A stretch of 64,000 nt of DNA, taken from NCBI RefSeq assembly GCF_001990485.1, contig NZ_LBFC01000006.1, positions 1-64,000 of the forward strand. Reading direction: 5' to 3'. The notes beneath the pieces are model-generated. The model saw nothing but the letters and a program-made list of their open reading frames with translations. It had not been told where the DNA came from and did no database searches. The position numbers were made by a program, and so were the translations under genes. Positions 5,435-50,329 of the stretch are shown in pieces; position 1 is the first letter of the stretch, and every line of letters begins with the position of its first letter. The stretch comes from Thermosipho affectus. Lineage in GTDB: Bacteria > Thermotogota > Thermotogae > Thermotogales > Fervidobacteriaceae.

Positions 5435-5468
5435 CCTTTAAATTGGTCCTGAGAGGCCAGAAAGGAGG
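5435..5468 (+). promoter_or_regulatory. PyrR-type RNA binding element covering the uraA ribosome binding site
   Basis: The leader contains GGTCCTGAGAGGCC (5445-5458), which matches the conserved PyrR-binding hairpin core known from Bacillus pyr leaders (UCC-N-GNGAGG). A lower stem forms between CCTTT at 5435-5439 and AAAGG at 5461-5465. The second strand of that stem is the start of the ribosome binding site AAAGGAGG (5461-5468). In this geometry PyrR with UMP would stabilise the hairpin and hide the ribosome binding site, so control would be translational. The match is direct; the presence of pyrR in this genome is inferred. Confidence 0.7.
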
Positions 5469-5475
5469 AATTGGT

Positions 5476-6684
5476 ATGGATTTTGAAAGCACATTAGGGG
5501 TCTATCAAAATGTAAACGGATGGAAAAAGGTCATTCTAGCCCTTCAGCACTTTTTAGCCATGTTTGGAGCCACCGTTCTTGTTCCACTTCTTACAGGTCT
5601 TGACCCACTTGTTGCACTCTTTACAGCTGGTTTGGGAACATTAACATTTCATTTTATTACCAAAAAGATAGTTCCAGTTTTTCTTGGATCAAGTTTTGCA
5701 TACATTGCTCCAATAATCTTAGTTAAAGAAAAAACGGGAGATTTAAGGTATGCAACTGGGGGTATAGTCGTTGCAGGAGCTGTATATTTAATCTTTTCGC
5801 TATTAATAAAAATGATTGGAACTGAAAAAATCAAAAAATTATTTCCGCCCGTAGTTACGGGTCCTATGATTATGGTTATCGGATTAAGTTTGAGTCCTGT
5901 GGCAATTGATATGGCATCGAAAAATTGGAGTGTTGCAATAATTGTTATTATAACCATTATCTTGTCCACAACAGTTTTCAAAGGATTATTCAATCTAATA
6001 CCAATACTAATCGGAATAGGTGTAGGATATGTATTCTCATTAATAACGGGAAATGTGGACCTTACTCCAATGAAAAACTCTGCTTTTGTGTCTGTTCCAA
6101 AATTTATGCTTCCAAAGTTTGACATTTCATCAATTCTTCTTATTGCACCTGTAGCAATAGCAACTTTTATGGAGCACATAGGTGATATTACAACTAACGG
6201 AGCCGTAGTAGAGAAAAATTTCATAGAAAATCCAGGACTTCACAGAACATTAATTGGTGATGGGATTGCAACAATGATAGCGGGGGTTTTGGGAGGTCCT
6301 GCAAATACGACTTACAGCGAAAACACGGGAATTTTGGCTTTGACAAAGGTATATGATCCATCTGTTTTAAGACTTGCCGCAATATTTGCAATATTTATGT
6401 CTTTCTTTTCAAAATTTGGTAGCATATTACAGACAATCCCCACTGCGGTTATAGGTGGCGTAAGCTTGATATTATTTGGAATGATTGCGTCAGTTGGATT
6501 AAGAACAATAGTTAACGAAAAAGTAGACTTTTCAAAGCCAAAAAATTTAATCGTTTCTTCCTTAATACTTACACTAGGTATCGGTGGTGCAAGTTTTACA
6601 ATAGGTTCTATAGAACTCAAAGGGCTTGCACTGGCAGCTATTGTTGGAATAATAGCAAACCTTGTAATTCCAGAGAAAAAATAA
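5476..6684 (+). CDS. uraA: Uracil/xanthine permease, NCS2 family
   Basis: Inner-membrane nucleobase transporter of 402 residues with about 12-14 hydrophobic segments. The NCS2 signature region is visible as TTYSENTGILALTKVYDP near residue 280, and the N-terminus (GWKKVILALQHFLAMFGATVLVP) is typical of UraA/PyrP proteins. The open frame runs 33 bases further upstream, but that part is the PyrR-like leader; the ATG at 5476 follows AAAGGAGG by seven bases and is the real start. The leader element argues for uracil rather than xanthine as substrate. Transcribed alone, with a strong terminator at its end. Confidence 0.9.
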   Translation: MDFESTLGVYQNVNGWKKVILALQHFLAMFGATVLVPLLTGLDPLVALFTAGLGTLTFHFITKKIVPVFLGSSFAYIAPIILVKEKTGDLRYATGGIVVAGAVYLIFSLLIKMIGTEKIKKLFPPVVTGPMIMVIGLSLSPVAIDMASKNWSVAIIVIITIILSTTVFKGLFNLIPILIGIGVGYVFSLITGNVDLTPMKNSAFVSVPKFMLPKFDISSILLIAPVAIATFMEHIGDITTNGAVVEKNFIENPGLHRTLIGDGIATMIAGVLGGPANTTYSENTGILALTKVYDPSVLRLAAIFAIFMSFFSKFGSILQTIPTAVIGGVSLILFGMIASVGLRTIVNEKVDFSKPKNLIVSSLILTLGIGGASFTIGSIELKGLALAAIVGIIANLVIPEKK

Positions 6685-35655: not shown

Positions 35656-38280
<2,625 letters not shown>

Positions 38281-38288
<8 letters not shown>

Positions 38289-39342
38289 TTTTCTCACCCC
38301 AAATCTTTGCCTCTTCTTTGCCTTTTAAAACTCTTAATGCACCTTTTGCAAGAGCTTCCATTTCAAATTCACCAGGTACAGAAAAAACAGGTGCAAACTT
38401 AAATACGTATGACTTAATTTTTTCAACAACATTTTGGTTGTTAGCTATACCACCTGTGATAACAATAGCATCCACTTTTCCTTTCAATACCGCACACATT
38501 CCTCCAATTTCCTTTGCGATTTGATAAATCATAGCATCAACGTAGAATTTTTCCTTATCCGTTCCCGTTTCTAATACTTTTTTCACATCATTTGTTCCAA
38601 GATATGCAACTAATCCTCCTCTTCCAACAAACATCTTCTTCAATTCTTTTTTTGAATATTTTCCAGAAAAAGCAAGTTTAACTACATCTCCTACTGGAAG
38701 CTCCCCTGTTCTTTCCGGGCTAAAAGGTCCTTCATCATTTGCATTGTTAACATCTATCATCTTTCCTTTTCTATGGGCAGTTACAGAAATTCCTCCTCCA
38801 AGATGCGCAACTACCATATTCAAATCCTCATACTTTTTTCCCAATTGTTCCGCCACTTCTCTAGCAACTGCTTTTATATTTAACGCATGAACAAGGCTTA
38901 ATCTTTCAATTTCCGGAATCCCAGAAACCCTGGCTTCGTCTATCATTTCATCAACAGAAACAGGATCAGTTATAAATACAGGTATCTTTCCATTTGACAA
39001 AGAATACCCTATTACAGCTGCTAAATTTGAAGCATGCTTGACTTTGGTTTTATTTTTTAAATAATCCACCATACTTTCATCTACTCTATAAGTTCCACTT
39101 TCAAGTGGTGGTAAAATACCTCCCCTACACGCTATTGCAGAAAAATCTTCCACTTTATAATCTTCCTCTGAAAGAAACTTTAAAATCTCTTTTTTTCTAA
39201 AATCCTCTTGTTCCATAATATCGTTAAATTTTTCCAATTCACTTACATCATGTCTTAATGTCCTTTGAACTAACTTTTTATCATCATCAAAAATTGCAAC
39301 TTTTGTGCTCGTTGAACCAGGGTTAATAACTAATATTAACAC
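38281..39342 (-). CDS. buk: Butyrate kinase (second copy)
   Basis: Paralogue of the other kinase, 353 residues. [17 protein letters not shown] and AHLGGGISVTAHRKGKMIDVN are the phosphate motifs, and EGPFSPERTGELP the substrate-loop region. GTG start, eight bases after AGGGG. Differences in the substrate region from the first copy suggest that the two kinases prefer different acyl chains, for example butyrate versus isobutyrate or isovalerate; this is inference. Confidence 0.92.
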
Positions 39343-42903: not shown

Positions 42904-42947
42904 AAAACAAAAACGGGTAATCTTAAAAGATTACCCGTTTTTGTTTT
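42904..42947. terminator. Terminator after serA, also after tRNA-Ala
   Basis: A perfect 21-base inverted repeat (42904-42924 and 42927-42947, core ACGGGTAATCTT) with T-rich right arm. It ends serA on the plus strand; because its sequence is symmetric and ends on the last base of tRNA-Ala, it can also end the tRNA transcript on the minus strand. Confidence 0.88.
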
Positions 42948-43022
42948 GGTGGAGCCGATGGGATTTGAACCCACGGCTTCTACCGTGCGAAGGTAGCGCT
43001 CTCCCAACTGAGCTACGGCCCC
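42947..43022 (-). tRNA. tRNA-Ala (CGC)
   Basis: A 76-base cloverleaf on the minus strand with encoded CCA. The anticodon stem CTACC/GGTAG encloses TTCGCAC, giving anticodon CGC. The acceptor stem GGGGCCG/CGGCTCC carries the G3:U70 pair that marks alanine tRNA. T loop GGTTCAAATCC is normal. It lies alone, oppositely oriented to its neighbours. Confidence 0.95.
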
Positions 43023-43195: not shown

Positions 43196-44401
43196 TTGAA
43201 CGAAGCATTAAAACTTGCATACAAATTCAAAAATGACATTATACACTTCATGAGCAGATTAATTAAAGCAAAAAGTTATTCTGGTGATGAAAAAGAAGTT
43301 ATACAAGTTATCAAAAGTGAAATGGAAAAGGTCGGATTTGATAGTGTGAAAATTGATGGACTGGGAAATATAATTGGAAAAATAGGAAACGGTAACACAA
43401 AAATTGCAATGGACGCCCATATTGATACTGTAGATATTGGAAATGAAACACTTTGGGAAAGAGACCCATTTTCCGGAAGTTTCGATGAAAAATACGTATA
43501 TGGTAGGGGAGCATCTGATCAAAAAGCAGGAATGTGTTCAATGGTGTATGGAGCAAAAATACTCAAAGAACTAAACCTTTTTGATGACTTCACACTCTAT
43601 GTTACAGGTACGGTTATGGAAGAAGACTGTGATGGTCTTTGCTGGAGATATATCATTGAAAAAGAGAAGATAAAACCAGATTTTGTTCTCATTACTGAAC
43701 CAACATCTCTAAAAATAAACAGGGGTCACAGAGGAAGAATAGAATTTAGAATCAGAACAAATGGGATATCCGCACACGCCAGTGCACCAGAAAGAGGAAT
43801 AAATGCCATATACAAAATGGCAAAAATAATAAACGAAATTGAAAAACTAAATAACAGGTTGGAAAGCACCTCATTTTTGGGAAAAGGGACAATAGTAGTC
43901 TCACAAATATTTTTTAAATCTCCTTCACACAATGCAGTACCTGATCAATGTGAGATTCAGATAGACAGAAGAATAACTGAAGGCGAAACAAAAGAAGTGG
44001 TATTTAATGAAATTAAAGAAGTATTTAAAAGAGCTGGTGTTGATGATGCTCAAATTATTGAATTGGAATACAAAAAACCATCGTATACTGGTGTGGTATA
44101 TCCAACGGAAAAATATTTTCCTGCATGGGTTTATCCAGAAGAGAGCATTATTGTCCAAAGTGCCGTAAAAAACTATGGATATCTATTCAATTCCTCTCCG
44201 AAAATAGACAAATGGATATTCTCGACTAATGGAACGGTCACAGCAGGAGTCTATAACATTCCAACCGTTGGCTTTGGACCAGGTGACGAAAAATATGCTC
44301 ATGCACCAAATGAAAAGGTAGAAATTGAACATCTTATAAAAGCTGCTGCATTTTACGCTACATTTCCAAAAACGTTAATCAAAAACTTAAAGGGGGAATG
44401 A
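43196..44401 (+). CDS. ygeY: M20 family hydrolase, YgeY-like
   Basis: Di-metal amidohydrolase of 401 residues. Metal and catalytic residues are in DAHIDTVDIG, RGASDQKAGM, VMEEDCDGL, ITEPTSL and YAHAPNE. The WERDPFSGSFDEKYVYGRGASD stretch is typical of YgeY, which in purine-degradation clusters is thought to hydrolyse a ureido or carbamoyl intermediate. A TTG at 43196, eight bases after GGAGG, is chosen over a GTG within the ribosome binding site. First gene of ygeY-ygeW-hyuA-ssnA; its stop overlaps the next frame. Confidence 0.85.
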   Translation: MNEALKLAYKFKNDIIHFMSRLIKAKSYSGDEKEVIQVIKSEMEKVGFDSVKIDGLGNIIGKIGNGNTKIAMDAHIDTVDIGNETLWERDPFSGSFDEKYVYGRGASDQKAGMCSMVYGAKILKELNLFDDFTLYVTGTVMEEDCDGLCWRYIIEKEKIKPDFVLITEPTSLKINRGHRGRIEFRIRTNGISAHASAPERGINAIYKMAKIINEIEKLNNRLESTSFLGKGTIVVSQIFFKSPSHNAVPDQCEIQIDRRITEGETKEVVFNEIKEVFKRAGVDDAQIIELEYKKPSYTGVVYPTEKYFPAWVYPEESIIVQSAVKNYGYLFNSSPKIDKWIFSTNGTVTAGVYNIPTVGFGPGDEKYAHAPNEKVEIEHLIKAAAFYATFPKTLIKNLKGE

Positions 44402-44403
44402 CT

Positions 44404-45393
44404 ATGTCTACGTTTTTCAGAGGAAGACACTTTATAACAACTCAAGATTTCACAAATGAAGAAATAGATATAATGTTAGATCTTGCAAGAAAATTAAAAA
44501 TAAAATTCAGCTACGGTGAACCAACTCCATATTTACTTTACAAAACGTTATTTTTGATATTCTTCGATGAAAGTACAAGGACAAGAAATAGTATGCAAGC
44601 GGGTATAGCACAATTAGGAGGTACTGGAATATTCTTAACACCTGATAAAATGCAAATAGCACATGGTGAAGTCGCAAAAGATACCGGTATTATACTATCC
44701 AGATTTGGAGATGGAATTGGAATAAGATATTGTAAATTTGGTGAAGGAAATAAATACCTTAACGAAATAGCCAAACATTCAAAGGCTCCTGTTATGAATC
44801 TCCAAGACGATATATATCACCCATTTCAAGTACTTGCCGACATCTTAACAATTCAAGAAAGATTTGGAAAAAATCTAAAAGGTCTCAAGGTAGGAATAAG
44901 TTGGGCATATGCTGAGAGTCATTTAAAACCACTATCAGTCCCTCAATCTCAAATTTTATTATTTACAAGATTCGGAATGGACATTACACTTTCTTATCCA
45001 AAAGGATTTGATTTAATGCCAGAAATTATTGAACAAGCAAATAAAAATGCGGAAAAGTATGGTGGAAAATTAAATATCTCTCACAAGATGGAAGATGCAT
45101 TTGTAGATGCAGACGTAGTAATCCCCAAAAATTGGGGTGGTTTCTTTGTATCGGATAATCCAGATGAGATTCGTGCAGAACAAGCAAAGCATAAAAATTG
45201 GATCTGTACAGAAGAATTAATACGACTTACTAAAAAACATTCCATTTATATGCATGCACTCCCCGCAGACAGAGGAAAAGAAGTGGTTGATAGCGTAATA
45301 GATGGTCCTCATTCTGTAGTCTATGATGAAGCGGAAAACAGACTTCACACAGCTAAAGCCATTATGACACTGCTAATGGGAGGAAGATTCTAA
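44404..45393 (+). CDS. ygeW: Knotted carbamoyltransferase YgeW
   Basis: Aspartate/ornithine carbamoyltransferase-family enzyme of 329 residues. DESTRTRNS is the carbamoyl-phosphate loop and HPFQVLADI the HPxQ motif. The insert FLTPDKMQIAHGEVAKDTG and SWAYAESHLKPLSVPQS mark YgeW rather than ArgF or PyrB. Its natural substrate is a ureido compound of purine breakdown. ATG at 44404 is preferred to the ATG at 44398, which is only one base from AAAGGGGG. Encoded directly behind ygeY. Confidence 0.87.
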   Translation: MSTFFRGRHFITTQDFTNEEIDIMLDLARKLKIKFSYGEPTPYLLYKTLFLIFFDESTRTRNSMQAGIAQLGGTGIFLTPDKMQIAHGEVAKDTGIILSRFGDGIGIRYCKFGEGNKYLNEIAKHSKAPVMNLQDDIYHPFQVLADILTIQERFGKNLKGLKVGISWAYAESHLKPLSVPQSQILLFTRFGMDITLSYPKGFDLMPEIIEQANKNAEKYGGKLNISHKMEDAFVDADVVIPKNWGGFFVSDNPDEIRAEQAKHKNWICTEELIRLTKKHSIYMHALPADRGKEVVDSVIDGPHSVVYDEAENRLHTAKAIMTLLMGGRF

Positions 45394-45395
45394 TA

Positions 45396-46688
45396 ATGTA
45401 TGATATTGGCATTGTAAACGGAAAAGTATTTGTAGATGGAACTTTTATCCATCTAAATGTATATATCAATGCAGGAAAAATATCTGATTTATCAACAAAT
45501 TATCAAAAATGCAAAAAAGAAATTGATGCAACCGGGAAGATTATCCTTCCCGGTTTTATTGATCCACATGTACATTTTGAACTAAACCTCGGAAGATATA
45601 CATCTATTGACGATTTTAAGAGTGGAAGTATTTCTGCTTTATTTGGTGGTGTAACTACGATAATTGATTTTTTAGATCCAATAAACTCTCATGAGCAACT
45701 TAAAGAAGCATTTAATAAAAGATTAAAAGCAGCACAAAATTCAAAAATAGATTTTTCTTTTCACGTTACTCTTGGCCAGTTTAACGGTGATTTAGATACG
45801 CTATTTAAAATGTCAAAAAAACTGGGAACAAGGTCTATAAAAGTATTTACCGCTTATTCTACTAGTAAAAGAAGGACATCTGATAAACTTTTGTACAAAT
45901 TATTTGAAAAATCAATAGAATATAACGTACCAATCTTAATCCATGCCGAAAATGAAGATATGATAGTTGAAAATGTCCCAATTAACCTCCATTCAAAAGC
46001 AAGACCAGAAATTTCAGAAATTTCTGAAATAATTAAAATATCCGAATTTATTTATCAAACAAAAGGAATTGCTTATATTGTGCATACAACTTGTGGAACT
46101 TCAATCGAAGAAGTTAAAAATAGATTTGCAAAAATTCATAACAAGAATTTATTTTTTGAAAGTTGTCCGCACTATTTTTATTTTGATGATGAAGTATACA
46201 GTAGAAGAGATGCCTATCTATACACTATGACACCTCCCCTTAGAAGTAAAATTGAAAAAGAAAAACTAAAAGCAAACATTGACAATATCTTTTCGATTGG
46301 CACTGATCATTGTTCATTTAACAAGAAAGACAAAAGAAAAAAGAAAACAGGAAACCTTCCCATGGGAATTGGAGGAATTGAACATTCATTCATATTAATG
46401 TACTCATTGTTTGGTGATAAAATAATCGATAAATTTACAATAAACCCGGCAAAATTTTTCGGTCTATATCCTAAAAAAGGGGCACTACTCCCAGGATCCG
46501 ATGCTGATATTGTAATTTTCAATCCTAATTACAACGGAAAAATAGTAGAAAGTCATACAAAAGCCGACTATGATCTCTTCTTAAATACAAAGATAAAAGG
46601 AAAAATAGAAAAAGTAATTAAAGATGGTATTTTAGTGATAGATAATCAATTATTAAATTCACCCCTCGGAAGATTTATCAGGAGGTAA
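45396..46688 (+). CDS. hyuA: Hydantoinase/dihydropyrimidinase family amidohydrolase
   Basis: Cyclic-amide hydrolase of 430 residues. The metal-site residues are complete: DPHVHFE, the carbamylated lysine in RSIKVFTAY near residue 150, LIHAEN, IVHTTCG and GTDHCSF. In related clusters this enzyme opens a hydantoin-type ring made from the purine skeleton; dihydropyrimidine or allantoin hydrolysis are alternatives. Starts two bases after ygeW. Confidence 0.85.
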   Translation: MYDIGIVNGKVFVDGTFIHLNVYINAGKISDLSTNYQKCKKEIDATGKIILPGFIDPHVHFELNLGRYTSIDDFKSGSISALFGGVTTIIDFLDPINSHEQLKEAFNKRLKAAQNSKIDFSFHVTLGQFNGDLDTLFKMSKKLGTRSIKVFTAYSTSKRRTSDKLLYKLFEKSIEYNVPILIHAENEDMIVENVPINLHSKARPEISEISEIIKISEFIYQTKGIAYIVHTTCGTSIEEVKNRFAKIHNKNLFFESCPHYFYFDDEVYSRRDAYLYTMTPPLRSKIEKEKLKANIDNIFSIGTDHCSFNKKDKRKKKTGNLPMGIGGIEHSFILMYSLFGDKIIDKFTINPAKFFGLYPKKGALLPGSDADIVIFNPNYNGKIVESHTKADYDLFLNTKIKGKIEKVIKDGILVIDNQLLNSPLGRFIRR

Positions 46689-46693
46689 TATTG

Positions 46694-47998
46694 ATGAAAG
46701 CTATAATTAATGCTAACATATTTGATTTTGATAATTTCTACAAAAATTATTATATATTATTCGATAAAAAAATAATTGAAATTGGTAGTATGGAAAAATT
46801 TCCAGGTGCATCACATGTGATTGATGCACATGAAAATTTTGTAATGCCAGGTTTAGTTATTGGACATACACACATTTACTCAACATTTGCAAGAGGATTG
46901 AGTCTACCATTTAATCCTATAAACTTTAAAGATATATTAAATCAACTATGGTGGAAACTTGACTCAAAGCTTGGCAAAACTGAAAATTATTTTAGCGCTC
47001 TTGTTTCAGGGATTGAATTTATCAAAAATGGCGTAACAACAGTTATTGACCATCATGCAAGTGGAAAACAAATTAAAGGAAGTTTAAATACACTAAGGAA
47101 AGCATTGTGCGATGAAATAGGATTAAGAGGAATTTTTTGTTTTGAAACAAGTGACAGATTCAACGTAGAAGAATGTATCCAAGAAAATCTTTTATTTTTA
47201 AATGAAAATAATACTGATATGTATGCAGGATTATTTGGATTACATGCATCTTTAAGCTTGTCTGATGAAACCTTAAAAAAGATATCCGAACTTTACAAAG
47301 GACCTATTCATGTTCACGCAGCAGAAAGTATAGATGATGTAGAAGATTCACTTTCAAAATATGGGATGCGAGTTATAAATCGCTTGAATAAATTTGGCCT
47401 ACTTAGAGAGAATTCTATCCTTGCACATTGTGTTCACGTTACTGAGGAGGAACTTAAACTCATCAGTCAAAATAACTGTTATATTGCTTTAAACGTTTCT
47501 TCCAATATGAATAACGCAGTTGGTCTTCCAGATTACCAAAAAATGAAGAAACATAATGTAAAAACGATAGTAGGCAATGATGGTTTGGGATTTAACTTAG
47601 CAAGAGAATTACTAAATTTATTTTTTTCAATGAAGCTAAAAGGTAAATCTCCTCTTGCATTCTCGTTAGATGACCTAAGATACTCTATATCAAATACATA
47701 CGAAATAGCAAGTAAACTACTTAAAATCAAATTAGGAAAAATACAACCAGGGTATGTCTCTGATTTAATAATTGTTCCATATATTCCTCCCACACCTATT
47801 AGTAAGGAAAATGCTTATGGACATGTTGTTTTTGGCTTGCTTGATAACTTTAGGCCATCTCATGTAATTGTCAACGGCAAATTGCTAATGGATAATTACA
47901 AAATAACGGTTCCCACAGATGATGTCAATGAAATTTATAAAGAAGCCAGAAAAGTCTCACAAAGATTGTGGGAAAATTTGAGTAAAAATTATAAATAA
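46694..47998 (+). CDS. ssnA: SsnA-like amidohydrolase
   Basis: Metal-dependent amidohydrolase of 434 residues related to guanine/8-oxoguanine deaminases. Metal ligands: GHTHIYST near residue 58, IHVHAAES, LAHCVHV and VGNDGLGFN. The FARGLSLPFNPINFKDILNQLWWKLD stretch is a marker of the SsnA group found beside ygeY and ygeW. It probably deaminates or opens a purine-derived ring. The often used name 'putative selenium metabolism protein' has no support in this sequence. ATG eight bases after GGAGG. Confidence 0.85.
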   Translation: MKAIINANIFDFDNFYKNYYILFDKKIIEIGSMEKFPGASHVIDAHENFVMPGLVIGHTHIYSTFARGLSLPFNPINFKDILNQLWWKLDSKLGKTENYFSALVSGIEFIKNGVTTVIDHHASGKQIKGSLNTLRKALCDEIGLRGIFCFETSDRFNVEECIQENLLFLNENNTDMYAGLFGLHASLSLSDETLKKISELYKGPIHVHAAESIDDVEDSLSKYGMRVINRLNKFGLLRENSILAHCVHVTEEELKLISQNNCYIALNVSSNMNNAVGLPDYQKMKKHNVKTIVGNDGLGFNLARELLNLFFSMKLKGKSPLAFSLDDLRYSISNTYEIASKLLKIKLGKIQPGYVSDLIIVPYIPPTPISKENAYGHVVFGLLDNFRPSHVIVNGKLLMDNYKITVPTDDVNEIYKEARKVSQRLWENLSKNYK

Positions 47999-48017
47999 TA
48001 ATCCTTTCAGGAAAAAT

Positions 48018-48290
48018 ATGTGTATTTTTATTATCCACAACTTAATTTGTGGTGTCAAACAGAAAAAAACAATCTAGAAGCATTATTATATAACAAAAGG
48101 CTTTGAAGGAATATTATTAATTTCAAAATCAATGTCTTTGTGCTTAATTTTCGATTTAAAAATAAATGGTGATCTATATTTAACATATATGATTAGTGGT
48201 AACTTAGATAAACAAAGTAACATTTTACTGATAAACAATTATTATCAAAATGATTTATATTCTACAATCAACCTAAAAAACAAACAATGA
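48018..48290 (+). pseudogene. Possible decayed small gene with one in-frame stop
   Basis: From an ATG at 48018 one reading frame stays open to a TGA at 48288-48290 (90 codons) except for a single TAG at 48075-48077. The N-terminal part reads MCIFIIHNLICGV. No family is recognised and no ribosome binding site stands before it. It fills most of the 374-base gap between ssnA and the flavoprotein gene; the rest of the gap holds nothing I can name apart from TTGACA at 48304-48309 without a clear -10. It may be chance in A/T-rich DNA. Confidence 0.3.
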
Positions 48291-48372
48291 TTGTACTTAA
48301 TAATTGACAAATCTGTTGTATTAGATATTTCTTTAAGATCTAACCTTAAAAACAACTAAAGGGGGAATTATC

Positions 48373-49455
48373 GTGGATCTTTCAACAGAACTTTCAGGCA
48401 TAAAAATCCAAAATCCTGTAATGCCAGCTTCAGGACCTTTAGTGGGTGATTATGAAAAGATTAAATTCATTGATTCTACTGGAGTTGGTGCCATTGTTAC
48501 AAAAACAATTTCTACAAAAGCAGCCGAAGTTCCAAGACCATGTATATACGGAGAAAACAACTTTGCTATGAACGCAGAACTGTGGTCAGAATATCCTCCC
48601 AAAAAATGGTTGGAGGAATTTCTACCTCGTTTAAAAGAGGAATTATCCAAACCTTTGATCATAAGCGCAGGATATTCAAAAGAAGACATGAAACAATTAA
48701 TACCAAAATTAAACGAATTTGCCAATGCCTTTGAAATATCCACTCATTATGTTGGAAAAACTTATGAAACTATTGGTGAAATAGTAAAAGCAATTAGGGA
48801 TAACACAGATAAACCTATATTTATGAAAATGAGTCCACATATTCCAGATCCAATTAAATTCACAGAAGTAGCTTTAAAAAACGGAGCTAACGGTATAGTC
48901 GCAATTAACTCTCTTGGTCCTACAATGAAGATAGATATACAAAATAGAAAAATCTTAATTGGAAATGAAAAGGGGCAAGTATGGCTTTCAGGTCCTGCCA
49001 TCAAACCTGTAGCACTCGCTATTATAAAAATACTTCGAGATGCATTTCCTGAAATTACAATTATTGGTGTTGGAGGAATAAAAAATGCAGATGATGTAAT
49101 TGAATTTTTGTTGGCCGGAGCAGATTCAATCCAACTTCTTTCATCAGCACTAATATTCGGTAAAGACATATATGAAAAAATAATAAATGATCTACCGAAA
49201 AAACTTGAAAAATATGGATTCAACAGTGTAAAAGAAGTTAAAGAAACAAAACTTACACACAAAGTAAAATATATACCAAAACATCCTAAAGTTAACAATG
49301 AAAAATGTACACTGTGTAAGTTATGTGAAAAAGTATGCCCTTACTTTGCAATAACAATTGATAAAAAAGTCAACATAGACATAAAAAAATGTTTCGGTTG
49401 CGGGTTATGTGAAAGTAGATGCCCAACAAAGGCAATAACAGGAGTTTTAGAATAA
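48373..49455 (+). CDS. Dihydroorotate-dehydrogenase-like flavoprotein with two [4Fe-4S] motifs (PreA-like)
   Basis: A 360-residue TIM-barrel flavoprotein (about 1-300) joined to a ferredoxin domain with CTLCKLCEKVCP and CFGCGLCESRCP. This layout is that of PreA, the catalytic subunit of bacterial dihydropyrimidine dehydrogenase. FMN-binding segments VGVGGIKNADD and LLSSAL are present. The catalytic-loop block NxSCPN of the family is missing; at that place the sequence reads FEISTHYVGKTYET. The substrate may therefore differ from dihydroorotate or uracil. No PreT partner is adjacent. GTG start after AAAGGGGG. Position behind ssnA suggests a role as ring reductase or dehydrogenase in the same pathway. 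Confidence 0.8.
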   Translation: MDLSTELSGIKIQNPVMPASGPLVGDYEKIKFIDSTGVGAIVTKTISTKAAEVPRPCIYGENNFAMNAELWSEYPPKKWLEEFLPRLKEELSKPLIISAGYSKEDMKQLIPKLNEFANAFEISTHYVGKTYETIGEIVKAIRDNTDKPIFMKMSPHIPDPIKFTEVALKNGANGIVAINSLGPTMKIDIQNRKILIGNEKGQVWLSGPAIKPVALAIIKILRDAFPEITIIGVGGIKNADDVIEFLLAGADSIQLLSSALIFGKDIYEKIINDLPKKLEKYGFNSVKEVKETKLTHKVKYIPKHPKVNNEKCTLCKLCEKVCPYFAITIDKKVNIDIKKCFGCGLCESRCPTKAITGVLE

Positions 49456-49544: not shown

Positions 49545-49621
49545 CGGGGCGTAGCGCAGTTGGCTAGCGCGCCTGTCTTGGGAACAGGAGGCCGCTGGTT
49601 CGAGTCCAGTCGCCCCGACCA
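49545..49621 (+). tRNA. tRNA-Pro (TGG)
   Basis: 77 bases with encoded CCA. Acceptor CGGGGCG/CGCCCCG; anticodon stem CCTGT/ACAGG encloses CTTGGGA, giving TGG. First gene of a five-tRNA operon. Confidence 0.95.
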
Positions 49622-49624
49622 CAA

Positions 49625-49701
<77 letters not shown>

Positions 49702-49718
49702 ACTCGAAGAGGTCTAAT

Positions 49719-49795
49719 GCGCCCGTAGCTCAATAGGATAGAGCACCGGACTTCTAATCCGGGGGTTGTGGGTTCGACTCCCGCCGGGCGCGCCA
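49719..49795 (+). tRNA. tRNA-Arg (TCT)
   Basis: 77 bases with encoded CCA. Acceptor GCGCCCG/CGGGCGC; anticodon stem CCGGA/TCCGG encloses CTTCTAA, giving TCT. Its body is very close to the second arginine tRNA of the same operon. Confidence 0.95.
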
Positions 49796-49818
49796 AAATT
49801 TAATATTTTATTATGCGT

Positions 49819-49894
49819 GGTGGCTATAGCTCAGTGGTAGAGCGCCTGACTGTGGATCAGGTGGTCGTGGGTTCAAATCCCACTAGCCACCCCA
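49819..49894 (+). tRNA. tRNA-His (GTG)
   Basis: Acceptor GTGGCTA/TAGCCAC preceded by an encoded G at position -1 (49819) that can pair with discriminator C, the identity mark of tRNA-His. Anticodon stem CCTGA/TCAGG encloses CTGTGGA, giving GTG. CCA is encoded. Confidence 0.95.
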
Positions 49895-49924
49895 TTTTTC
49901 ATATTATAATGTTTTTGATAAAAT

Positions 49925-50001
49925 GCGCCCGTAGCTCAATAGGATAGAGCGTCGGACTTCGGATCCGAGGGTTGCGGGTTCAAATCCTGCCGGGCGCGCC
50001 A
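49925..50001 (+). tRNA. tRNA-Arg (TCG)
   Basis: 77 bases with encoded CCA. Acceptor GCGCCCG/CGGGCGC, anticodon stem TCGGA/TCCGA enclosing CTTCGGA, giving TCG. Last tRNA of the operon; no terminator is seen between it and spoVS 64 bases further on. Confidence 0.95.
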
Positions 50002-50065: not shown

Positions 50066-50329
50066 ATGGAAGTTCTTAAAGTTGCATCAGGTTCCAATCC
50101 TAACAAAGTCGCCGGTGCTCTTGCAGGAGTAATCAGAGAAAAAGGGAAAGCTGAAGTTCAAGCAATTGGTGCCGGTGCAGTAAATCAAGCTGTCAAAGCC
50201 ATTGCAATTGCAAGGGGTTATCTTGCTCCAAGTGGTATTGATCTTGTATGTGTACCTGCTTTTACCGATGTAAGTATCGAAAATGAATCTAGAACTGCTT
50301 TAAAATTCATCGTCTTTCCAAGAGAATAA
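50066..50329 (+). CDS. spoVS: Stage V sporulation protein S family (SpoVS)
   Basis: An 87-residue Alba-like-fold protein, nearly free of gaps against the family: MEVLKVASGSNPNKVAGALA, VQAIGAGAVNQAVKAIAIARGYLAP and FIVFPRE. SpoVS affects septation in Bacillus, and it is kept in many non-sporulating thermophiles, where it may bind nucleic acid. AAAGGAGGT ribosome binding site. It probably shares the tRNA operon transcript, which would make its expression growth-linked. Confidence 0.93.
   Translation: MEVLKVASGSNPNKVAGALAGVIREKGKAEVQAIGAGAVNQAVKAIAIARGYLAPSGIDLVCVPAFTDVSIENESRTALKFIVFPRE

Follow-up and report, generated by a model that had tools for sequence, protein, structure and literature searches.

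A stretch of 64,000 nucleotides from Thermosipho affectus (the window; C6:1-64000 of genome G000, which is 1.77 Mb long and 99.8% complete) carries ygeY, ygeW, hyuA and ssnA genes followed by a gene for a flavoprotein with dihydroorotate dehydrogenase (DHOD) and ferredoxin domains. A sequence-only reading of the window had taken this cluster for a shortened anaerobic purine-degradation module of a thermophile, with no accessory genes and a PreA-like protein in their place. The question raised by this locus is whether the pathway is indeed shortened. Our analysis indicates that the genome very probably encodes a complete reductive urate pathway, with its genes distributed among three loci (on contigs C6, C22 and C1); the cluster in the window would be the half that opens the ring and cleaves the ureido groups. 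The cluster itself is real and lies at the positions given in Table 1; the tight packing of ygeY, ygeW, the hydantoinase gene and ssnA ahead of the DHOD/ferredoxin gene, their families and the gaps between them were all confirmed. Chance does not account for it, since many Thermotogota have the five genes in this order and the motifs of the active sites are preserved.

Pathway genes in the window and elsewhere in the genome

The reactions of XdhD, YgfK/UacX, SsnA, HyuA, YgeW, YgeY and YgeX have been assayed (PMC12507026), and homology to these enzymes upholds two earlier suggestions, namely that the cluster belongs to anaerobic purine degradation and that its YgeW would yield carbamoyl phosphate. 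YgeY scored 566-602 bits against family models (602 for NF009555; cut-off 321). The YgeW-type protein is a short form of 331 residues carrying the motifs STRTR, QIAHGE, KPLSVPQ and HALPAD. Its top sequence match in the PDB is YgeW (3q98), with which it has QIAHGE and the KPLSVPQ loop in common, and in a tree it joined E. coli YgeW, separate from the ornithine carbamoyltransferases (OTCs) of its own genome and of E. coli (88/92). Short clostridial forms, from clusters with YgeX and carbamate kinase, also grouped with it; we treated the window protein as a short YgeW-type relative rather than an equivalog. HyuA, 29% identical to its E. coli namesake, retains the HxH, K, H, H and D ligands and also matches a D-hydantoinase model, and SsnA (33% to E. 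coli SsnA) has intact metal ligands. The SsnA, HyuA and YgeY genes are encoded together, in an order kept across Thermotogota. The flavoprotein is best assigned to UacX, as discussed below.

Matches to molybdenum xanthine dehydrogenase (Mo-Xdh) were located on C1 and C22. The C22 operon (L075) encodes, in order, a pyridoxal phosphate (PLP) enzyme of 405 residues, a 2Fe-2S protein, two flavin adenine dinucleotide (FAD) proteins, a second 2Fe-2S protein and the Mo subunit. This Mo subunit scored 486 bits with E. coli XdhD vs 410 with XdhA, and the second FAD protein resembles YgfM most. An XdhD-specific residue proposed to orient urate, Glu606 (PMC12507026), is kept in the C22 subunit within a matching GEG loop. 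A conserved operon on C1 (L074:7125-13901) encodes adenine deaminase, a second Mo-Xdh subunit, a cysteine-synthase-like PLP protein (474 residues) and an 8-oxoguanine deaminase, which is over its cut-off (584 vs 532) and whose product is urate. The carbamate kinase ArcC is encoded on C3 (422 bits, cut-off 358). The absence of accessory genes thus holds within the window; genome-wide it fails for Xdh and carbamate kinase, while canonical ygeX and ygfK are absent over cut-off. Our literature search found no paper tying Thermosipho to xanthine dehydrogenase, and a Thermosipho genome paper (PMC8630151) limited its report of known genes for purine and pyrimidine breakdown to UBA2242 and Kosmotoga.

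In the proposed pathway, adenine deaminase, 8-oxoguanine deaminase and the C1 Mo-Xdh would supply urate, which the XdhD/YgfM-type enzyme of C22 would reduce to yanthine (2,8-dioxopurine). UacX would reduce the purine ring of yanthine, probably with ferredoxin, SsnA would open the reduced ring to give ureidomethyl-hydantoin, and HyuA would turn the latter into 2,3-diureidopropionate. One ureido group would be phosphorolysed by YgeW to carbamoyl phosphate, which carbamate kinase could use to form ATP, and the other would be taken off by YgeY, leaving 2,3-diaminopropionate. The C22 PLP enzyme, in YgeX's place, would finally produce pyruvate and ammonia, so that carbamoyl phosphate, ammonia and pyruvate would be the end products.

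In other Thermotogota the two halves are joined. Immediately behind the five genes, G056 (L034/L087), G052 (L046/L085) and Mesoaciditoga (L113) carry, in this order, the PLP gene, a 2Fe-2S gene, a MobA-like gene and the genes for the FAD subunits, a second 2Fe-2S protein and the Mo subunit. Kosmotogaceae contigs (L120, L121, L123) agree with this arrangement up to their ends, and in the family to which the window belongs the block is divided in two. The comparison of cluster order that the sequence-only reading had called for therefore speaks against a shortened pathway, with Xdh and putative lyase genes joining the cluster in one operon in deeper lineages. Of 61 relatives, 29 have both UacX (E<=1e-60) and Mo-Xdh, and the others have neither; at the genus level both are present in 17 of 27 genera and in none of the remaining 10. 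SsnA was found in 28 of these 29 genomes and in no others, and YgeY was over cut-off in 26 genomes, with a contig-edge fragment in one more (G042). Five families (f1, f2, f3, f8 and f9) each hold members with and without this pair; shared history lowers the weight of the co-occurrence, yet all five within-family contrasts agree. None of the SsnA matches in the 28 Thermotogota genomes reaches the curated cut-off, and these lineages may therefore have been overlooked.

Several points weigh against this assignment. The window YgeW misses its NCBIfam equivalog cut-off (230 vs 453 bits) and its predicted fold fails to separate YgeW from OTC. HyuA (TIGR02033, 278 bits; cut-off 393), SsnA (NF005540, 403 bits; cut-off 444) and the Xdh subunits (NCBIfam equivalogs) also score too low, and other purines could be the substrates of the C1 Xdh. 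Genes, active-site motifs, operon structure and co-occurrence are observed, while every reaction, substrate and electron donor is assigned by homology, above all at the PLP step, where further adverse points are given below.

The last enzyme of the pathway

The XdhD-type enzyme, UacX, the YgeW-type protein with carbamate kinase, and the SsnA-HyuA-YgeY set were all recovered, and YgeX was not; the locus is therefore filed as a pathway variant and not as a plain member. No canonical YgeX over the TIGR01747 cut-off was detected in any of the 61 genomes, and this absence does stand as a variant trait. The simplest reading of the gene content is a non-orthologous replacement of YgeX by the C22 PLP enzyme, a proposal that is the weakest link of the reconstruction. 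This enzyme is threonine-synthase-like, both by a score over the TIGR00260 cut-off and by its tree position, and was present in 25 uacX loci, from Thermotogota, Heimdallarchaeota, Spirochaetota, Bacilli, Hakubella and Bipolaricaulota. YgeX was present in six, all clostridial, and never in the same locus as the PLP enzyme. Clusters of Maledivibacter and Anaerosalibacter (L135, L139) resemble that of Thermosipho in having YgeY beside a short YgeW, with SsnA, UacX, HyuA and Mo-Xdh, and have carbamate kinase behind ygeW; they differ from it in keeping canonical YgeX.

Otherwise compatible with a urate pathway is the possibility that the C22 protein is an ordinary threonine synthase, the pathway ending at 2,3-diaminopropionate or relying on some other, unrelated lyase; the cysteine-synthase-like C1 protein, likewise linked to purine genes, would be one candidate. 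The C22 enzyme is the sole ThrC-like match over cut-off in G000 and could therefore be the cell's threonine synthase; it aligns with YgeX at 22% over 234 residues, and the exclusivity of the two enzymes has a hypergeometric probability of about 0.013, which ignores kinship. However, G052 and other relatives carry a strong ThrC (about 330 bits) in addition to the PLP enzyme, and the PLP gene lies between the uacX and xdh genes. The C1 protein is disfavoured as a YgeX substitute, since C. lacusfryxellense has both YgeX and a homologue of this protein. We consider an ordinary threonine synthase rather unlikely, though it carries more weight than either alternative below.

UacX and alternative substrates

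The flavoprotein has 360 residues, a PF01180 DHOD domain and a Fer4 ferredoxin domain with two [4Fe-4S] sites, and lacks an FAD/NADPH domain. In C. difficile, the substitute for YgfK was named UacX and its conversion of yanthine with SsnA was shown (Li et al., PMC12507026). C. difficile-type clusters, in which UacY, YgeX, YgeY, SsnA, UacX, HyuA and Xdh are encoded side by side (L188, L190 and L192, from genomes in the family of a Peptostreptococcaceae metagenome-assembled genome (MAG)), encode UacX proteins 41-42% identical to the window protein, with the loop E-x-STHY in common. Judged by these likenesses, the window flavoprotein is UacX, the known replacement of YgfK. The earlier proposal of a PreA-like protein for ring reduction thus stands by homology, although not as a novel stand-in. 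YgfK itself gave no match over cut-off genome-wide, and partial matches covered only its middle region.

The STHY loop was found in 12 of 12 Thermotogota rows; its use as a mark of UacX comes from this analysis and not from PMC12507026. E. coli PreA has NFSC at this position. The UacX of C. chromiireducens carries STHY, whereas NFSCP is found in a separate PreA-type homologue of this species and NISCP in its PyrD; the NFSCP protein is probably the ferredoxin PydAc characterised in PMC7332683. Because of this difference, STHY argues for the urate branch and against uracil as substrate. The catalytic Cys of the PreA/PydAc loop is not present in the window UacX, and we infer that His or Tyr of STHY may take over its acid role. 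The predicted model (predicted local distance difference test score 89) has dihydropyrimidine dehydrogenase (DPD) as its best fold match. With PydAc, PreA and DPD it shares the DHOD-like flavin mononucleotide (FMN) fold, two [4Fe-4S] sites and the substrate-site positions N-x-E and N-[ST]; it differs from them in STHY, in the lack of an NAD(P)H subunit and in its gene neighbours. A second cluster in the clostridial genome G110 (L189:1-19901) encodes a UacX paralogue (31%) without STHY, XdhD-like subunits, a hydantoinase and YgeY-like proteins, and is perhaps a sister pathway for another heterocycle.

This kinship with PreA and DPD, together with dihydropyrimidinase as the top family of HyuA and a uracil/xanthine-family permease within the window, would suit reductive pyrimidine degradation. 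UacX would then be a ferredoxin dihydropyrimidine dehydrogenase, HyuA a dihydropyrimidinase, and YgeW would phosphorolyse N-carbamoyl-beta-alanine to carbamoyl phosphate. We hold this to be improbable: all close UacX proteins have STHY for the catalytic Cys of PreA, whereas the PreA-type paralogue of the same Clostridium retains NFSCP, and SsnA, YgeY and the strict link with Mo-Xdh would be left unexplained. Least likely of all is a truncated salvage module without xanthine dehydrogenase or diaminopropionate lyase, fed by imported ureides, hydantoins or pre-reduced purines, as might be read from the isolation of the five genes between tRNA genes, since Xdh and the PLP enzyme are present in the genome and, in sister families, encoded in the operon of the cluster, and since none of the 61 genomes has UacX or Xdh without the other. 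A truncated pathway was rejected on account of the Xdh, with its YgfM-like subunit, the candidate PLP lyase and the carbamate kinase of the same genome.

Locus layout, distribution and history

Table 1. Features of the Thermosipho window (positions are those of the window).
Feature	Position	Strand	Basis
NCS2 nucleobase permease, possible substrate importer (putative role)	5443..6684	+	PF00860, 307 bits
tRNA-Ala(CGC), left cluster border	42947..43022	-	ARAGORN
ygeY, M20 hydrolase (predicted ureido-group hydrolase of the reductive urate pathway)	43196..44401	+	NF009555; 51% identity with E. coli YgeY; metal-ligand motifs preserved
Short YgeW-type carbamoyltransferase (predicted to turn a ureido group and phosphate into carbamoyl phosphate)	44398..45393	+	motifs; tree; 36% identity with E. 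coli YgeW
HyuA-type cyclic amidohydrolase (predicted to form diureidopropionate from ureidomethyl-hydantoin)	45396..46688	+	TIGR02033; ligands intact
SsnA-type amidohydrolase (predicted to hydrolyse reduced yanthine)	46691..47998	+	NF005540; metal ligands intact
Decayed orphan-gene remnant	47998..48372	+	tblastn; stops; internal deletions
uacX, FMN DHOD-like reductase, two [4Fe-4S] sites (predicted to dearomatise yanthine by reduction, probably driven by ferredoxin)	48373..49455	+	STHY loop; fold
Five tRNA genes (Pro, Gly, Arg, His, Arg), right cluster border	49545..50001	+	ARAGORN

The ygeY and ygeW genes overlap by 4 bases, and gaps of 2 bases separate ygeW from hyuA and hyuA from ssnA (5 when counted from the ATG of ssnA). 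For ygeY, starts at GTG 43187 and TTG 43196 are available, and the GGAGGTG ribosome site suits the latter better. A promoter scan gave 32 sites vs 32.9 expected, an uninformative result. A second NCS2 permease is encoded elsewhere in the genome (G000:C9:18578-19747).

The 374 bases between ssnA and uacX hold a decayed gene, detected by tblastn (E=7e-26 with the entire window as target, 1e-30 with the 501 bases of 47900-48400). Its intact counterparts encode 413-441 residues with an apparently signal-like N-terminus, and no Pfam family was found in the two intact copies scanned. This orphan gene lies between ssnA and uacX only in the window genome and in genus g4, with intact copies at L038, L039, L042 and L094 and in G006 and other members of the G006 genus. 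The window hyuA, ssnA and uacX are 92, 95 and 89% identical to those of G006, which belongs to another genus, vs 66-80% to those of same-genus genomes; serA and ygeW lack a comparable excess. Because of this difference, the segment from hyuA through ssnA and the remnant to uacX (45396-49455) is likely to have been recombined.

Compared with the cluster of C. difficile and C. sporogenes (XdhD, UacX, SsnA, HyuA, UacY, YgeY, YgeX; PMC12507026), Thermosipho likewise has an STHY-type UacX rather than YgfK, with SsnA, HyuA, YgeY and Mo-Xdh. It differs in having YgeW for UacY, a threonine-synthase-like PLP enzyme and no canonical YgeX, an Xdh operon that encodes two subunits each of the FAD and FeS types, and split loci, in a thermophile. 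With the E. coli cluster (xdhD-ygfM, ygfK, ssnA, hyuA, ygeW, yqeA, ygeY, ygeX) it shares the branch of YgeW and carbamate kinase, YgeY, SsnA, HyuA, a Mo subunit nearest XdhD and one FAD subunit nearest YgfM; it differs in UacX for YgfK, the short YgeW and the apparent replacement of YgeX.

Two further groups of genes were seen in the window: a phosphotransbutyrylase-like gene flanked by two acetate/butyrate-kinase-like genes (36296-39342), and, right behind the tRNA cluster, a gene for a SpoVS-like protein (50066-50329), in a phylum not known for spores.

The UacX tree, whose sample was seeded from Thermotogota and is biased in its proportions, has two main groups. One contains the C. difficile-type clusters and Hakubella, the other Thermotogota, Clostridium, Bacilli, Heimdallarchaeota and Spirochaetota; in the latter group, Clostridium lies close to Thermosipho and Marinitoga. 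Two Heimdallarchaeota MAG contigs (L126, L128) carry ssnA, uacX, the PLP gene, 2Fe-2S and Xdh genes in succession and, if not misbinned, would represent an archaeal version of the pathway. The phylum list of PMC12507026 does not include Thermotogota. What appears to be new here, enzyme activities being assigned by homology, is the pathway in Thermotogota, the apparent replacement of YgeX and the diversity of UacX in non-gut lineages.

This pathway was elucidated in gut bacteria in 2025; a commentary asks whether it is ancient or a gut adaptation and leans towards the gut (PMC12990295). Hydrothermal and subsurface Thermotogota with the pathway, and the Heimdallarchaeota and Hakubella loci, argue for an environmental origin. 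We tentatively raise the possibility, somewhat short of an even chance, that the pathway is old in environmental anaerobes (Thermotogota, Heimdallarchaeota, Bipolaricaulota, Hakubella and clostridia) and was taken up later in the gut, with two interchangeable last enzymes, YgeX or a new threonine-synthase-like diaminopropionate lyase. The STHY loop would serve as a sequence mark separating UacX of the urate pathway from uracil-type reductases, and the Thermotogota proteins provide heat-stable candidates for each step, including a candidate new lyase. Lineages of hot springs and the deep sea thus appear to share, with the apparent exchange of one enzyme, a pathway described chiefly from gut bacteria.

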